Below, piece by piece: positions 1 through 25,148 of a stretch of DNA of 64,000 bases (its first letter is position 1; each line of letters starts with the position of its first letter). The notes under the pieces are model-generated. The model was not told the DNA's origin, made no database searches, and worked only from the letters and a program-made list of their open reading frames with translations. Source of the DNA: Pedobacter namyangjuensis (lineage in GTDB: Bacteria; Bacteroidota; Bacteroidia; Sphingobacteriales; Sphingobacteriaceae). The stretch lies in NCBI RefSeq assembly GCF_003313325.1, contig NZ_QMHQ01000001.1, forward strand, positions 1,426,001 to 1,490,000, in the 5' to 3' direction. A program made the translations under genes and the position numbers.

Positions 1-1660
1 CACCTTGTTTGCTTCTATCGTTGCTTATATTTATAGCAGGATAATCCATCACAGAACCTTGCAAACCAATTTTACGCGTGATTTTAGTGTCATTCATTTC
101 TTTCGGACTTAACATTTGACTAGCCTTCATATTGTGGTTTAGGCCAAGTGTATGTCCCATTTCGTGCATAATTAAATAATACAAGAACTGTTTGTGCATT
201 TCTTTAACTGAAGCTGCTCTTTCTTTTTCGGGAGCATCTGCATCTAAAGCTTCAATTGCTGTAAGTCCGGCTTGATATTGCATGCTTAACTCTTGCGCTA
301 ACATACAAGTAGCGGCGTGGTTTTTACTATGGTTGTGCATTTGTGGTGTAGTTGCTACTATTGGGTTTTCCCAAGGAAGAGCCAAGCTAGTTGCATTACC
401 ACCATTGTAAAGCTCGTCTAAAACTGCAACCCCCGCACCAGATTTCCATTCAACTGTAATGTCGGCGCCAAGAATCTGACCTGTTAAAGGATTGAAGAAA
501 CTTGGACCGATTGCGCCGTAAGATGGATATGCTGAAGACACCCATCTAATTACATTATAAGATACATCTGCCGGATCCCATTTTGCATCATCAGGCATCT
601 GTTTCATAACAACAGCATTTTTAAAACCAGCTTTTTCAAAAGCTTCATTCCATTTCTCTCCAGATTCTTTTATGATACTGCGGTATTCTAGCGGAGTTGT
701 ATTCTCGATCCAAAAAGTAATTGGCTCTACTGGTTCGCTAAGTTTTGCAGATGGGTTTTTCTTTTCGAGGTTCCAACGACTTATAAAATCTTTATACGGA
801 GTGGCCGAGGTTGAGGTAAGGTCATCTACTTCGGCACCGAAATATCCTACTCTCGGATCATCTCTACGTGCACGGAAATTATTTGTAGGTACTTCTAAAA
901 ACGAGTGCTGTATTTTAACTCTTACGTAGCGTGCGTCTGTAATATCTTTTCCGCCACCATTCATTGGCATTGGGTTATCATAGGCTAAGTTAACAACAAC
1001 ATCGGTGTTTTTTGGAAATGATCTTACCGTCTCATATCTAGATTTGCCAGCATTAAGACTTCCTAAAACAAACATTGCTCCTGGTGGCATTCCCGGCGGA
1101 GTTGCAGGTTTAACGGGGTCTAACTTGTCGCTTAGAAAAAGACCATCTACATTAATAAGATAGCCGTCTTTATCTTCTACAGTAAATTTTTCGCTAAATA
1201 CTACCGCATCAGATACGTCTACATTGGCCGATTTGCTAACAGCATTATTTTTATCATAATAGAAATTTGTGTTCTTCTCTAAAAACTCTATTTTATCGTC
1301 AACTTTCTTTATGTGAAAAAGCATGGTAGACCTAATCATGTTCTGGTTAAGAAACAAAGTTGTTGGCCCACCCATAGAAAAGCTTTGGTAAATATAGTCT
1401 TTGCCAAGTTGGTTCTTACTTATGTACATCTGTAAGCTGCCTGTTGTGGTATCTCGATATAGCTTAAATAAACCATCGATTTGCTTACTAGCCTTAATCT
1501 TATCGGCTAAGGTAGTTTTAGCAGGCGTTGCTTTTTTAATAGAATCGATTACTGCTTTTTTAACAGAATCAACTACAGAAACCGGCTTTTTCTTTTCTTG
1601 AGCCAGTGCTCCCGTTGCTAACACTAGCGAAAGGGAGAATAGAACGAGTCGTTTGGTCAT
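1..1660 (-). CDS. Zinc-dependent metalloprotease, 3' end cut by window edge
   Basis: A secreted zinc protease, reading from an ATG at 1660 to the left edge without a stop, so only about 553 N-terminal residues are visible. The first 21 residues form a signal peptide ending LATGALAQ. Near residues 495-510 lies HEMGHTLGLNHN, which fits the extended HExxHxxGxxH zinc motif of metzincins. The overall wording matches the large Bacteroidota family annotated zinc-dependent metalloprotease with DUF5117/DUF5118 regions, usually about 800 residues. It is probably periplasmic or outer-membrane associated; substrates are unknown. It lies 81 nt downstream of the small membrane-protein gene on the same strand. 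No Shine-Dalgarno sequence precedes the start. Confidence 0.88.
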   Translation of the reverse strand, partial: MTKRLVLFSLSLVLATGALAQEKKKPVSVVDSVKKAVIDSIKKATPAKTTLADKIKASKQIDGLFKLYRDTTTGSLQMYISKNQLGKDYIYQSFSMGGPTTLFLNQNMIRSTMLFHIKKVDDKIEFLEKNTNFYYDKNNAVSKSANVDVSDAVVFSEKFTVEDKDGYLINVDGLFLSDKLDPVKPATPPGMPPGAMFVLGSLNAGKSRYETVRSFPKNTDVVVNLAYDNPMPMNGGGKDITDARYVRVKIQHSFLEVPTNNFRARRDDPRVGYFGAEVDDLTSTSATPYKDFISRWNLEKKNPSAKLSEPVEPITFWIENTTPLEYRSIIKESGEKWNEAFEKAGFKNAVVMKQMPDDAKWDPADVSYNVIRWVSSAYPSYGAIGPSFFNPLTGQILGADITVEWKSGAGVAVLDELYNGGNATSLALPWENPIVATTPQMHNHSKNHAATCMLAQELSMQYQAGLTAIEALDADAPEKERAASVKEMHKQFLYYLIMHEMGHTLGLNHNMKASQMLSPKEMNDTKITRKIGLQGSVMDYPAINISNDRSKQG

Positions 1661-1741
1661 GATTGATTAAATTTTACTAAAAATAGAAAAATTTAATCAT
1701 AACTAGTTGCGAATAAAACTATTGAAAATCTAACAGTTATT

Positions 1742-2128
1742 TTATGGCATTGGTTCCTTCATCATAACGATGCTATCTACCACGTAAACGCTAAAGCCAC
1801 GCCAAGGTAACGTGTTTTTGTATTCTTTATAATGCAATTCGAAGGTCTTTCCGCTGTTAGCCATCATTTTTTGTGCAACTGCCTCATTAGAAACCGAAAA
1901 TTCAAATTCATTTGATTGTAATGTCCCAGTTTGTCTTGATCTTACCCCAGTTTGAATAAGCTTGCCCTCATACGTTTTAAAAAGGTATCCTTTTTTAACG
2001 ATGTAATTTAGTTCGCCGGCTTTAACGCCCTCCCCAAAAACAAAATAGTAACGGTAATAAACGAATATGCCAACTATAATAAATAATATGATCGCAATAA
2101 TTGTGGTAACTTTTTTTCCAGTTGTCAT
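1742..2128 (-). CDS. Small membrane-anchored protein of unknown function
   Basis: 128 residues. A hydrophobic segment at about residues 8-25 follows a short basic start, so it is a signal anchor or single membrane helix with the remaining roughly 100 residues outside. I recall similar short proteins as a conserved Bacteroidota hypothetical family, but I cannot assign a function. It sits upstream of the zinc protease on the same strand and is divergent from rpsU. The C-terminal part is mixed polar and aromatic with no catalytic motif I recognise. Confidence 0.75.
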   Translation of the reverse strand: MTTGKKVTTIIAIILFIIVGIFVYYRYYFVFGEGVKAGELNYIVKKGYLFKTYEGKLIQTGVRSRQTGTLQSNEFEFSVSNEAVAQKMMANSGKTFELHYKEYKNTLPWRGFSVYVVDSIVMMKEPMP

Positions 2129-2265
2129 AGTATGTTTTTAAGGTATTTAAATGTAGGGAAAGAAAATTTAATTCCGAAAATAAATAGTTTTAACTAAACT
2201 GAAATTGCGTGTATAATGTTTGAATAGCTGATTTTAAATATGAGAAAAAAATATTTTGTTAAAGC

Positions 2266-2296
2266 TTTCTAATTATCAATTAATTATCTACATTTG
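2266..2296 (+). promoter_or_regulatory. Candidate rpsU promoter
   Basis: TTTC at 2266-2269, 19 bp, then TACATTTG at 2289-2296. This fits the Bacteroidetes primary-sigma consensus (TTTG, about 19 bp, TAnnTTTG) with one mismatch in the -33 box. Transcription would start near 2303, giving an rpsU leader of about 47 nt. Confidence 0.6.
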
Positions 2297-2328
2297 CAAC
2301 CCCGAATACTAGGGAATTAAAAAACATT

Positions 2329-2338
2329 GAGAGGAGGT
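2329..2338 (+). promoter_or_regulatory. Extended Shine-Dalgarno sequence of rpsU
   Basis: GAGAGGAGGT ends 11 nt before the rpsU ATG. AGGAGGT (2332-2338) is fully complementary to the usual 16S 3' tail. Such a site is exceptional here: almost no other gene in the window has one. Confidence 0.85.
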
Positions 2339-2349
2339 ATTTCTACGTT

Positions 2350-2544
2350 ATGATTATAATTAACATTAAAGACGGCGAATCATTAGATAAAGCGTTAAAA
2401 CGTTTCAAGAAAAAGTTTGAAAAAACTGGTGTATTGAGAGAACTACGTAGTCGTCAGGCATACGAGAAAAAATCTGTTGCTCGTCGTACAGAAATTAAAC
2501 ACGCTGTATACATTCAGAACATGCACCAAGAAGGAACGCTTTAG
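2350..2544 (+). CDS. rpsU: 30S ribosomal protein bS21
   Basis: 64 residues, normal length for bS21, lysine/arginine rich. It belongs to the 30S platform beside the 3' end of 16S rRNA. In Flavobacterium johnsoniae bS21, with bS18 and bS6, holds the anti-Shine-Dalgarno sequence away from mRNA. I recall Tyr54 of bS21 as one contact, and a Tyr is at position 54 here. The gene has its own candidate promoter, a strong SD and its own terminator, so it is a one-gene unit. The SD suggests autoregulation: ribosomes lacking bS21 have a free anti-SD and would translate this mRNA best. That regulatory reading is inference. Confidence 0.97.
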   Translation: MIIINIKDGESLDKALKRFKKKFEKTGVLRELRSRQAYEKKSVARRTEIKHAVYIQNMHQEGTL

Positions 2545-2566
2545 TTCTAATTGGCTAACATATAAA

Positions 2567-2601
2567 AACGTCTCGATCTTTTGGTCGGGACGTTTTTTTT
2601 T
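2567..2601 (+). terminator. rpsU terminator
   Basis: Ten-bp stem (2567-2576 with 2585-2594, one G-T pair), 8-nt loop, then a run of T to 2601. It separates rpsU from xerC. Confidence 0.9.
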
Positions 2602-2661
2602 GAAAAAAATATTTGCTCGTATTATTTTTTGTATATTCACTTAACGTGATACACCTTGTCT

Positions 2662-3546
2662 ATGTCAATAAATAGTTTCTTAATTTTTCTTCAGCACGAA
2701 AAACGATACTCTAATCATACTGTGGTTTCTTACGAGCAAGATTTGCAAAGGTTCGAAGTATTTTTGAATGAAAATTTTGAATTAGGTTTGTTAGATGCTA
2801 AGGCTGTGCATGTACGGAGCTTCCTGGCTTCGTTAATTGAAGAAAATCTTTCGGAAAGTACTGTGGGCAGGAAAATATCCGCCTTGCGTAGTTTTTATAA
2901 ACATGCCATCACAACAGAACTAAGGGCAGATAGTCCAATGGCACTTATCAAATCTCCCAAAATTCCTAAAAAACTCCCTGTATTTGTAGAAGATGCAAAA
3001 ATGGATTTCCTGTTAGATAACGATGATTATTTCTCGTTAGATTTTTCTGGTAGAAGAGATAAATTAATTATAGAAATTTTATTTGGAACGGGTGTACGTT
3101 TAGCAGAGCTGATGGGCTTGAAAGAAAACGATATCGATTTTTATCAGGGAACGATTAAGGTTTTGGGCAAGCGCAACAAAGAACGTATTATACCACTGCA
3201 TGCCGAACTTGTTACGCAAATAAAAAATTACATAAATTTAAAATTATCGCAGGATTTTGATAACAAAAACGCTACCTTAATCGTTACCAATACAGGAACT
3301 CCTGCTTATAGTAAACTAATTTATAGGGTTGTAAATAGCTATTTAACGCATGTTTCTACCCAAAGCAAAAAAAGTCCGCACGTTTTACGGCATTCTTTTG
3401 CTACCAGTTTGCTCAATAGGGGAGCCGATTTAAATGCAATTAAAGAACTATTGGGTCATGCTAGTTTAGCTGCCACGCAGGTTTATACGCATAATTCAAT
3501 AGAACGTCTAAAATCTATATATAAACAAGCCCATCCAAAGGCATAA
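2662..3546 (+). CDS. xerC: Tyrosine recombinase XerC-like
   Basis: 294 residues from the ATG at 2662; a TTG two codons upstream is possible but less likely. An N-terminal SAM-like core-binding domain (about 1-90) precedes the catalytic domain (about 105-290). All expected catalytic residues are visible: Arg146, Lys170, His240-x-x-Arg243, His266 and nucleophile Tyr275. Length and wording fit the housekeeping recombinase that resolves chromosome dimers at dif, not a phage integrase. The rpsU-xerC-hpf order ahead of the tRNA-tuf block looks like a core Bacteroidota arrangement. hpf follows after 13 nt and is probably co-transcribed. Confidence 0.95.
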   Translation: MSINSFLIFLQHEKRYSNHTVVSYEQDLQRFEVFLNENFELGLLDAKAVHVRSFLASLIEENLSESTVGRKISALRSFYKHAITTELRADSPMALIKSPKIPKKLPVFVEDAKMDFLLDNDDYFSLDFSGRRDKLIIEILFGTGVRLAELMGLKENDIDFYQGTIKVLGKRNKERIIPLHAELVTQIKNYINLKLSQDFDNKNATLIVTNTGTPAYSKLIYRVVNSYLTHVSTQSKKSPHVLRHSFATSLLNRGADLNAIKELLGHASLAATQVYTHNSIERLKSIYKQAHPKA

Positions 3547-3548
3547 AA

Positions 3549-3555
3549 AAGGAGG
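3549..3555 (+). promoter_or_regulatory. Shine-Dalgarno sequence of hpf
   Basis: AAGGAGG lies in the 13-nt gap between the xerC stop and the hpf ATG, 4 nt before the start. With rpsU this is one of only two clear SDs seen in the window. Confidence 0.8.
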
Positions 3556-3559
3556 AAAA

Positions 3560-3907
3560 ATGAAAATTAGAGTACAGTCAATCCATTTCAATGCAGACAA
3601 AAAGTTATTAGATTTCATTCAGAAGAAAGTAGATAAGTTAGATCAGTTTTTTGATCAGATAATAGGTGGGGAGGTTTACTTGAAGTTAGAGAATGTAGAA
3701 GACGAAGAGAATAAAATATCTGAAATAAAGTTAATGGTTCCGGGCATGACATTGTTTGCAAAAGAGCAATGTAAATCTTTTGAAGAGGCCACGGATTTAG
3801 CAATTGAGTCTTTAAGGAAGCAAATTACAAAACACAAAGATAAAACACGTGCAAAATTAAGCGAACACAAGGCAATTTTAAATGCAGATGAAGTAGCTGA
3901 TTATTAA
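3560..3907 (+). CDS. hpf: Ribosome hibernation promoting factor, short form
   Basis: 115 residues, matching the single-domain HPF/YfiA (RaiA) fold and lacking the C-terminal dimerisation domain of long HPF. The family binds the 30S A/P-site region and inactivates ribosomes in stationary phase or stress. The start MKIRVQSIHF and the basic C-terminal helix (KHKDKTRAK) are typical. It is 13 nt downstream of xerC, with a strong SD in the gap, and is followed by its own terminator. The SD suggests its translation responds to whether the anti-SD is accessible; this is inference. Confidence 0.93.
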   Translation: MKIRVQSIHFNADKKLLDFIQKKVDKLDQFFDQIIGGEVYLKLENVEDEENKISEIKLMVPGMTLFAKEQCKSFEEATDLAIESLRKQITKHKDKTRAKLSEHKAILNADEVADY

Positions 3908-3930
3908 GCTAGTAATTACGTAATTATTTT

Positions 3931-3970
3931 AAAAAGTTTGGCAAAAATTAAATTGCCAAACTTTTTTTTT
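3931..3970 (+). terminator. hpf terminator
   Basis: Perfect 11-bp stem (3934-3944 with 3953-3963), 8-nt A/T loop, T-run to 3970, with A-run on the other side. Confidence 0.92.
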
Positions 3971-3979
3971 AAAATATAT

Positions 3980-4009
3980 TTTGCACAAAGATTTATTTGT
4001 GTAGATTTG
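3980..4009 (+). promoter_or_regulatory. Consensus promoter for the tRNA-tuf operon
   Basis: TTTG at 3980-3983, 18 bp, TAGATTTG at 4002-4009: a full match to the Bacteroidetes -33/-7 consensus, just after the hpf terminator. A second -7 match, TATATTTG at 4107-4114, has only a weak -33 partner and lies 26 nt before the first tRNA. Confidence 0.75.
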
Positions 4010-4139
4010 CATTCCATTTCGGAAAGGGCGTTAGTTCTTAAGAAAAGGAAAGTTCTGTGAAAAGAGAAAAAAGTTAAATTAAATTATATAAAAGCACAAT
4101 TTTTTATATATTTGCGCCACATTTAACAAAACATAAAAA

Positions 4140-4212
<73 letters not shown>

Positions 4213-4250
4213 CTTTTTATTTTATGGCTACTAAGTTTTAGAATAAAAGC

Positions 4251-4333
4251 GGGGAGATTCCAGAGCGGCCAAATGGGACAGACTGTAACTCTGTTATCGC
4301 AAGATTTCGAAGGTTCGAATCCTTCTCTCCCCA
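4251..4333 (+). tRNA. tRNA-Tyr(GUA)
   Basis: 83 nt class II tRNA with a long variable arm. Acceptor GGGGAGA/TCTCCCC, discriminator A, anticodon loop CTGTAAC (anticodon GTA), T loop TTCGAAT. Confidence 0.97.
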
Positions 4334-4414
4334 CAAATGATTTTAGATTTTAAATGCAGGTTTTAGGTTGAAGTTTAAGCTAAACTCGTAAGTTTAAAAG
4401 TGGCAAATCAAAAA

Positions 4415-4487
4415 GCGGAAGTAGCTCAGTTGGTAGAGCGATAGCCTTCCAAGCTATAGGTCGCGAGTTCGAACCTCGTCTTCCGCT
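4415..4487 (+). tRNA. tRNA-Gly(UCC)
   Basis: 73 nt. Acceptor GCGGAAG/CTTCCGC, discriminator T, anticodon stem ATAGC/GCTAT with loop CTTCCAA (anticodon TCC). The spacer to the next tRNA holds a 10-bp imperfect stem (4495-4504 with 4542-4551), possibly a processing signal. Confidence 0.97.
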
Positions 4488-4562
4488 CTTGGAAGTTCAT
4501 TAGTAATTTGGTTCGCTTAGAAAGCCCAAAAGAACAGATGAACTAATGAGCTAAATGAATAA

Positions 4563-4634
<72 letters not shown>

Positions 4635-4756
4635 CAAAAAGAAAACAAACTTTGTTAAATCTGTTTTAAACAGAAAGAGCAAGGTTTTTTGTATTGAAAA
4701 TTGTATCAAAACAATAAATAAATAAAAAAAGTTAACCTACTAATAAGTATAAAAAC

Positions 4757-5944
4757 ATGGCAAAAGAAAAGTTTGACCGCAGCAAGCCGCACTTAAACAT
4801 CGGCACAATCGGTCACGTTGACCACGGTAAAACAACCTTAACAGCAGCAATTACAAAATGTTTAGCTGATGCTGGTTTATCTGAGGCACGTTCATTCGAA
4901 TCAATTGACTCTGCTCCAGAGGAAAAAGAAAGAGGTATCACAATTAACACGGCTCACGTTGAGTATTCAACAGCTAACCGTCACTATGCACACGTTGACT
5001 GTCCAGGTCACGCGGATTACGTGAAAAACATGGTTACTGGTGCGGCTCAAATGGACGGTGCAATCATTGTTGTTGCTGCTACAGATGGTCCAATGCCACA
5101 AACTCGTGAGCACATTCTATTGGCTCGTCAGGTAGGTGTACCTTCATTAGTTGTATTCATGAACAAAGTGGATATGGTTGATGATCCAGAATTATTAGAA
5201 TTAGTTGAAATGGAAGTTCGTGAATTATTATCTTTCTACGAATTCCCAGGTGATGATATTCCTGTAATCCAAGGTTCTGCATTAGGTGGATTAAACGGCG
5301 ATCCGAAATGGGTTGGTAAAATCATGGAATTAATGGAAGCTGTAGATAACTACATTCCAATCCCTCCACGTTTAACTGATCTTCCATTCTTAATGCCTGT
5401 TGAAGATGTATTCTCGATCACTGGTCGTGGTACTGTAGCAACTGGTCGTATCGAGCGTGGTCAAATCAACTCTGGAGATCCAGTTGAGATCCTAGGTATG
5501 GGTGCTGAGAACTTAAAATCTACAGTAACTGGTGTTGAGATGTTCCGTAAGATCCTTGATTATGGTGAAGCTGGTGATAACGTAGGTTTATTGTTACGTG
5601 GTATTGAGAAAACTGATATCCGTCGTGGTATGGTAATCTGTAAACCAGGTTCGGTAACTCCTCACACAGATTTCAAAGCTGAGATCTATGTATTATCAAA
5701 AGCAGAAGGTGGACGTCACACTCCATTCTTTAACAAATACCGTCCTCAATTCTATTTCCGTACTACAGACGTAACTGGTGAAATTTCACTAGCTGAAGGT
5801 ACTGAGATGGTAATGCCAGGTGATAACGTTACAATTTCTGTGAAATTGATCAACGCAATCGCAATGGAAAAAGGTCTACGTTTCGCTATCCGTGAAGGTG
5901 GTAGAACAGTAGGTGCTGGTCAGGTAACTGAAATCGTAGCTTAA
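4757..5944 (+). CDS. tuf: Elongation factor Tu
   Basis: 395 residues, full length. The GTPase P-loop GHVDHGKT is at residues 19-26, followed by the DCPGH switch II and NKVD guanine-specificity motifs, then beta-barrel domains 2 and 3. It delivers aminoacyl-tRNA to the ribosome as a GTP complex. The four tRNA genes directly upstream suggest co-transcription, because I found no clear promoter between 4634 and 4757. Codon use is strongly biased, as expected for a very highly expressed gene. No SD precedes the ATG. A perfect terminator follows. Confidence 0.99.
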
Positions 5945-24683: not shown

Positions 24684-24749
24684 GTCTTATTAATTTTTTA
24701 CAAAATAAATCAATTTTATGTATTAGGCGTTGTATTTTTGATTTTTATA

Positions 24750-25148
24750 ATGGAAAACGAGAAATTAAGGATTGATAAATACCTTTGGGCAATTAGACTT
24801 TTTAAAACCAGGAGTCTAGCTACCGATGCTTGCAAAGCTGGCAGGGTAAAATTAAACGGACAAAACTTAAAACCATCTGCAATTGTAAAAATAGGCGACG
24901 TGTATCAGGTATCTAAAGGAATTGAGAAGAAAATTATTGAGGTTGTTGATTTTTCCTATAACAGAACCGAAGCTAAAATTGCAGTTACCAAATACAAAGA
25001 TTTAACTCCTGTTGAAGATACACATGCTTTTAAATCTGTTTTTCATGCACCAACCTTGAAACGTGATAGAGGTGCCGGCAGACCAACCAAAAAAGACCGG
25101 CGAGAAACCGATGATCTTTTGGATGGAATGTTTGAAGAGGAGGTATAA
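24750..25148 (+). CDS. S4-domain RNA-binding protein, Hsp15-like
   Basis: 132 residues from the ATG at 24750; an upstream TTG would add four residues. The S4 RNA-binding domain occupies about 4-65 (LRIDKYLWAIRLFKTRSLATDACKAG in pieces, GRVKLNGQ). The basic C-terminal tail (APTLKRDRGAGRPTKKDRR) is typical of HslR/Hsp15, which in E. coli rescues 50S subunits carrying nascent chains. Role here is inferred from family. Confidence 0.9.
   Translation: MENEKLRIDKYLWAIRLFKTRSLATDACKAGRVKLNGQNLKPSAIVKIGDVYQVSKGIEKKIIEVVDFSYNRTEAKIAVTKYKDLTPVEDTHAFKSVFHAPTLKRDRGAGRPTKKDRRETDDLLDGMFEEEV

Follow-up and report, generated by a model that had tools for sequence, protein, structure and literature searches.

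An extended Shine-Dalgarno sequence before rpsU in Pedobacter namyangjuensis, a probable case of bS21 autoregulation, and a conserved ordinary Shine-Dalgarno sequence before hpf

bS21 autoregulation in Flavobacterium johnsoniae

In Flavobacterium johnsoniae, ribosomes that lack bS21 favor the mRNA of rpsU, the gene for bS21, which amounts to autoregulation (McNutt et al. 2023, PMC9976891; see also PMC8710568, a second paper of the McNutt group, and PMC10783764). The original proposal was made by Jha et al., as related in PMC9976891. The demonstration described there is both genetic and biochemical, and it used Shine-Dalgarno (SD) reporters, depletion of bS21, and the Y54A and delta-C mutants of bS21, both of which derepress reporters with a strong SD. 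When a strong SD was placed in the tuf leader, GFP went down somewhat in the wild type and went up upon mutation or depletion of bS21. A reporter with AGGAGGU also responded when bS21 was mutated or depleted, though more weakly than the extended signal of rpsU, and a reporter with the weak AGGA did not. Tyr54 of bS21 stacks on A1534 of the 16S rRNA (PMC9976891).

The published circuit, of which the pocket, the derepression, and the selectivity were shown in F. johnsoniae, is as follows. In a complete 30S subunit of the Bacteroidia, the 3' tail of the 16S rRNA sits in a pocket formed by bS21, bS18, and bS6, so that SDs are used poorly. In a 30S subunit without bS21, the tail is exposed and rpsU is translated preferentially via its extended SD. 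Renewed bS21 then shuts off the preference for rpsU.

The criteria given in PMC9976891 are that the rpsU leader pairs with 16S nucleotides 1532–1544 more strongly than −13 kcal/mol and that this pairing is the strongest among the ribosomal protein genes; by these criteria, the rpsU SD is strongest, and below −13 kcal/mol, in nearly all Sphingobacteriales. As the circuit is already described in that paper, with nearly all Sphingobacteriales included, autoregulation of rpsU is not a new proposal here. What we add is a further case, from a window of 64,000 nucleotides of the Pedobacter namyangjuensis genome, and a survey of 150 genomes.

The rpsU locus and its extended Shine-Dalgarno sequence

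The features of the locus are collected in Table 1. The product of rpsU matches the S21 family model with 62.4 bits (cut-off 28.95), and the initial annotation had both its coordinates and Tyr54 right. We found one 16S rRNA gene in the genome, with the 3' end ...GGAAUACCUCCUUUCU. The SD of rpsU, GAGAGGAGGTAT, forms an uninterrupted 12-pair duplex with AUACCUCCUUUCU in this tail, including one G.U pair, with an energy of −18.8 kcal/mol by ViennaRNA duplexfold. This bears out the initial reading of AGGAGGT with flanking matches before this gene. By eye, up to three more pairs toward helix 45 are possible. The energy is well beyond the −13 kcal/mol used for rpsU pairing in PMC9976891, where the energies came from free_scan rather than duplexfold. 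The GGAGG ends 12 nt before the ATG.

Table 1. Features of the rpsU–hpf region (positions in the window)
Feature	Position	Strand	Details
TACATTTG, −7-type promoter match TAnnTTTG	2289..2296	+	motif match
Extended SD of rpsU, GAGAGGAGGTAT	2329..2340	+	12 contiguous pairs with the genome's own 16S 3' tail
rpsU, bS21, 64 aa, Tyr54	2350..2544	+	ATG start; TIGR00030 S21 match
Intrinsic terminator after rpsU, hairpin and T-run	2564..2600	+	−20.6 kcal/mol for 2562–2602
XerC/XerD-type tyrosine recombinase	2656..3546	+	closest TIGR02224, below its cut-off
Ordinary SD of hpf, AAGGAGG	3549..3555	+	−12.2 kcal/mol; 4 nt between GGAGG and ATG
hpf/raiA, short ribosome hibernation-promoting factor, 115 aa	3560..3907	+	TIGR00741, 55 bits, cut-off 40.9

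Of all 127,976 13-mers of the window, counting both strands, the rpsU site pairs most strongly with the 16S tail. We also searched the genome (4.33 Mb, 97% complete, 29 contigs) for the 12-pair pattern GRRRGGRGGTRT and found four matches. As a reversed control pattern gave five, the count alone is not an excess. Only the rpsU copy lies at a start codon. One of the other three lies antisense to the 16S gene and a second antisense to a reading frame that resembles a recombinase; the third is intergenic, some 180 bases from the nearest gene start and oriented away from it. We rejected all three as signals of further genes with an extended SD, as no ORF of at least 50–60 amino acids begins at any of them.

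Upstream of the SD is a match to TAnnTTTG, which we take to be the −7 promoter element of the Bacteroidota. A promoter at this position would give rpsU a leader of roughly 45–50 nt. This element, together with a strong terminator hairpin after the gene, makes it probable that rpsU has a transcript of its own. In 149 of 150 genomes of the order, the 120 bases before rpsU contain TAnnTTTG, and a TTG at the −33 distance from it was found in only 49 of the 150. We found no firm sign of a structured leader that masks the SD: the leader folds at −3 to −11 kcal/mol, and the fold shifts with the ends that are chosen. A search of positions 1600–4800 for Rfam families found tRNAs only, and none at rpsU.

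Across the order, rpsU was matched in 150 of 151 genomes (our genome included), and the sole exception (G110) is an assembly in about 620 contigs. When all 150 leaders are paired against the anti-SD of the window's own genome, the energy is −14.6 kcal/mol or stronger in every one of them and −17 or stronger in 146. Every 16S tail among the matches listed contains CCUCC (at least 111 of the 151 genomes matched the pattern). Tyr54 is found in 150/150 genomes, our own included, with our own bS21 aligned to 7jil, the F. johnsoniae structure. In sequence alignments to the same structure, residues 5–87 of the 87 of bS18 and residues 1–107 of the 120 of bS6 can be aligned.

Two features of the survey, like the rarity of the −33 TTG, count against bS21 autoregulation at rpsU. 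First, the GGAGG (or its variant) ends 9–15 nt before the start codon, with a mode of 12, in these 150 genomes. Such spacings exceed the classical optimum, so the efficiency of initiation at rpsU is not certain. Second, in four genomes of one genus (g9) there is a mismatch within the helix, and the energies are −14.6 to −14.9 kcal/mol. We looked for a matching change in the anti-SD of these genomes, as their SDs contain T (AGGTGG), and found none: CCUCC is unchanged in G068, G079, and G117, the three with a 16S match (G125 had no match). Given the mismatch despite an unchanged anti-SD in those three, a fully paired helix is not needed. AGGTGG or GGGTGG is the form of the rpsU SD at loci L020, L026, L031, and L038, and also at the loci L318, L321, and L323 from named species.

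SDs are otherwise scarce. As the initial annotation stated, tuf, secE, rplK, and rplL have none (duplex energies at their starts of −1.7, +0.2, −2.2, and −0.8 kcal/mol). Its broader statement, that nearly every other start lacks an SD, holds for the window except for hpf and needs qualifying for some ribosomal protein genes elsewhere in the genome. Specifically, among 59 greedily called ORFs of the window (spurious ones included), only hpf scored at or below −11 kcal/mol; rpsU was scored apart from this list, in which a longer spurious ORF had displaced it. When we sampled 400 kb of the genome (20 stretches, first ATGs), 3 of 308 ORFs reached −11 or below, as compared with 2 of 308 for a mock upstream region, and none reached −13. 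Finally, rpsU has the strongest SD of the 33 ribosomal protein genes that we examined. (Most of these were named from their reading frames and order; rpsU, rpsR, and rpsF were identified by family models.) The runner-up is rplX, which at −12.6 kcal/mol is weaker by 6.2 kcal/mol, followed by rplE (−12.5), rpsR (−12.3), rplW (−12.0), and rplF (−11.9, with −10.3 in its mock region), and the remaining genes are at −8.5 or weaker. The five ordinary SDs are a known class. At their loci in this genome (L155/L156 and L157), all five genes are downstream cistrons. Within the window, AAGAGGAGGTATA (−16.0 kcal/mol) lies at 25135–25147, at the extreme 3' end of the reading frame 24738–25148, and no start codon is found there.

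We considered two other explanations for the rpsU signal. It could be an effect of chance or composition, given that the window has other SD-like strings of −14 to −16 kcal/mol at places that are not start codons. However, the rpsU site ranks above all of them, energies of −11 or below are hardly more frequent at sampled genes than in the mock region and −13 is never reached, and the SD is present in 150 of 150 genomes. As the signal is conserved, we regard chance as refuted and give it practically no weight. Alternatively, the extended SD could serve to drive initiation strongly and constitutively at a small gene with high expression, with no feedback. This would suit a gene that seems to stand alone between a promoter-like motif and a terminator, and feedback is proposed here by analogy. 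But tuf, rplL, and rplK are expected to be very highly expressed and have no SD in this genome, and the strong SD in the tuf leader of F. johnsoniae somewhat lowered GFP in the wild type and raised it upon mutation or depletion of bS21 (PMC9976891). So, we consider constitutive initiation very unlikely. By analogy with F. johnsoniae, rpsU is instead, with high probability, an instance of the published bS21 autoregulation in a Pedobacter-type genome, and we infer that the circuit runs in P. namyangjuensis. The proposal in the initial annotation that ribosomes without bS21 would favor this mRNA is thus supported by the experiments in F. johnsoniae, as described in PMC9976891, and by the sequence features tested here.

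An ordinary Shine-Dalgarno sequence before hpf

Besides rpsU, the only strong SD that we found at a start site in the window precedes hpf, two genes downstream, and had been missed in the initial annotation. It lies just beyond the stop codon of the xerC-type gene and is therefore free of coding constraint. We found no SD for the xerC-type gene itself (the ATG at 2662 may be its true start) or for G000 C23, another hpf-like gene in this genome. Among the best 80 of a longer list, the named close relatives of this hpf are from Pedobacter species, the best with 97% identity. Four tRNA genes (Thr, Tyr, Gly, Thr) lie at 4140–4635, between hpf and tuf.

The hpf SD is conserved in the order. We searched 101 loci (30 rpsU loci, L004–L033, and 71 loci, L162–L232) and found hpf in 79. 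These come from 78 genomes, as L026 and L191 belong to the same one, out of the 150 in the order that match PF02482. (Of the other 22 loci, 21 are rpsU loci with no hpf detected, and one, L232, is the distant paralogue.) The energy is −9 kcal/mol or below in 77 of the 79 and −10 or below in 75; −9 was reached in 0 of 79 mock regions and at 0 of 39 xerC starts. The exceptions in the order, counting the named loci below as well, are L164 and L316 (−3.0, apparently one genome), L325 (−4.7), and L219 (−8.8). Similarly, 78 of 80 named hpf loci (the best 80 of a longer list) are at −9 or below, as compared with 0/80 mock regions and 1/79 xerC starts. The named loci overlap the order loci in species, so we deduplicated the two sets for a joint count, which gave 83 distinct upstream sequences: 77 contain GGAGG, and the other six have GGGGG (one), GGAG (three), or no SD (two). 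The A-rich positions flanking the GGAGG are also conserved, and those 8 or more bases upstream of it are variable; an A-rich start context is described in PMC9976891 as a feature of SD-independent initiation in the class. The SD also persists where hpf is remote from rpsU: in the 20 loci taken from genus g2, the two genes are on different contigs or at least tens of kilobases apart, and all 20 keep the SD at −12.2 kcal/mol.

The hpf SD does not resemble that of rpsU closely. Most of the order loci have the same −12.2 kcal/mol as ours, and only 3 of the 79 (L163, L181, and L214) have an SD stronger than −13. The distance from GGAGG to ATG is 4–5 nt in 75 of the 79 order loci, versus the longer spacing at rpsU, which suggests that the two helices differ in geometry.

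In other families of the class, the hpf SD reaches −10 kcal/mol in 10 of 29 loci and −9 in 11 of 29, as scored without regard to the anti-SDs of the hosts (controls: mock 0/29, xerC 1/24). These 29 were not drawn at random: they scored best among the 59 other genomes that we sampled. Of the 10 loci, seven have an rpsU with no SD, two have an rpsU with a moderate one (−8.8 and −9.3), and one does not include rpsU. (The named locus L272 starts inside rpsU, which makes its rpsU energy an artefact; that energy was left out.) Conversely, L338 has −18.0 at rpsU and −4.0 at hpf, and L355 has −14.9 and −2.5. The two SDs are therefore not tied together. Among the matches listed in our literature search (titles and the starts of abstracts), we found no prior report of an hpf SD in Bacteroidota, and none of the names hpf, raiA, and yfiA occurs in the main text of PMC9976891. 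The conserved ordinary SD at hpf is a modest new observation.

What might the hpf SD do? One explanation is that the SDs of hpf, rplX, rplE, rplW, rplF, and rpsR merely aid local re-initiation at downstream cistrons and have no link to bS21; we give this about an even chance. All six genes are downstream cistrons, and the xerC stop codon lies 12–18 nt before hpf in 77 of the 79 order loci. Also, in the 400-kb sample, 3 of 85 downstream cistrons (gap of at most 40 nt) have an SD of −10 kcal/mol or below, as compared with 0 of 228 other genes (4/85 and 2/228 at −9). On the other hand, being downstream is not sufficient, as 82 of those 85 have no SD at −10, and several loci of the class have a gap of 3–12 nt and no hpf SD. 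Against pure coupling, all six of the order and named loci with the xerC stop 86–119 nt upstream retain the SD (L032, L314, L315, L319, L320, and L324, of which L032 and L315 are alike in gap and leader and could come from one species). At L164/L316, where the SD is absent, the gap is 32 nt.

Alternatively, hpf could be a second target of ribosomes with a free anti-SD, which is possible but unproven. As the AGGAGGU reporter is responsive in F. johnsoniae (PMC9976891), even an SD that is strong but not extended can register a free anti-SD. More broadly, ribosomes with a freed anti-SD might act as the switch of a small regulon in the Sphingobacteriales and here and there among other Bacteroidia: if 30S subunits lost bS21 (or bS18), both rpsU and hpf would rise, with rpsR included. 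The rise of rpsU would be repair, and the rise of hpf would bring ribosome hibernation and protection. We hold this regulon to be doubtful. Since the hpf SD is kept in lineages whose rpsU has no SD, hpf may also read the state of the ribosome independently. On present evidence, local initiation inside the operon is more likely than a link to bS21, because the hpf SD is not extended, is short-spaced, and belongs to a downstream cistron, and because the ribosomal protein genes with ordinary SDs are likewise downstream. If the hpf SD is functional in the other sense, it would tie ribosome hibernation to ribosome completeness via the same anti-SD switch, and whether specialized ribosomes without bS21 translate more than one mRNA becomes a directly testable question.

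Comparison with the F. johnsoniae system

The rpsU gene of P. namyangjuensis shares with that of F. johnsoniae, as described in PMC9976891, an extended SD below −13 kcal/mol, Tyr54 in its product, a CCUCC anti-SD, and an SD-poor genome, and in both rpsU is apparently a stand-alone gene. The predicted leader of roughly 45–50 nt is longer here than the 25 nt in F. johnsoniae. Another difference is that, in this genome, at least rplX, rplE, rplW, rplF, rpsR, and hpf have ordinary SDs. Five of these agree with Jha et al. and the wider Bacteroidia survey, both as related in PMC9976891, which give rpsR, rplE, rplF, rplW, and rplX with similar energies (−12 to −13 kcal/mol). Unlike the SD-bearing set described there, hpf is not a ribosomal protein gene.
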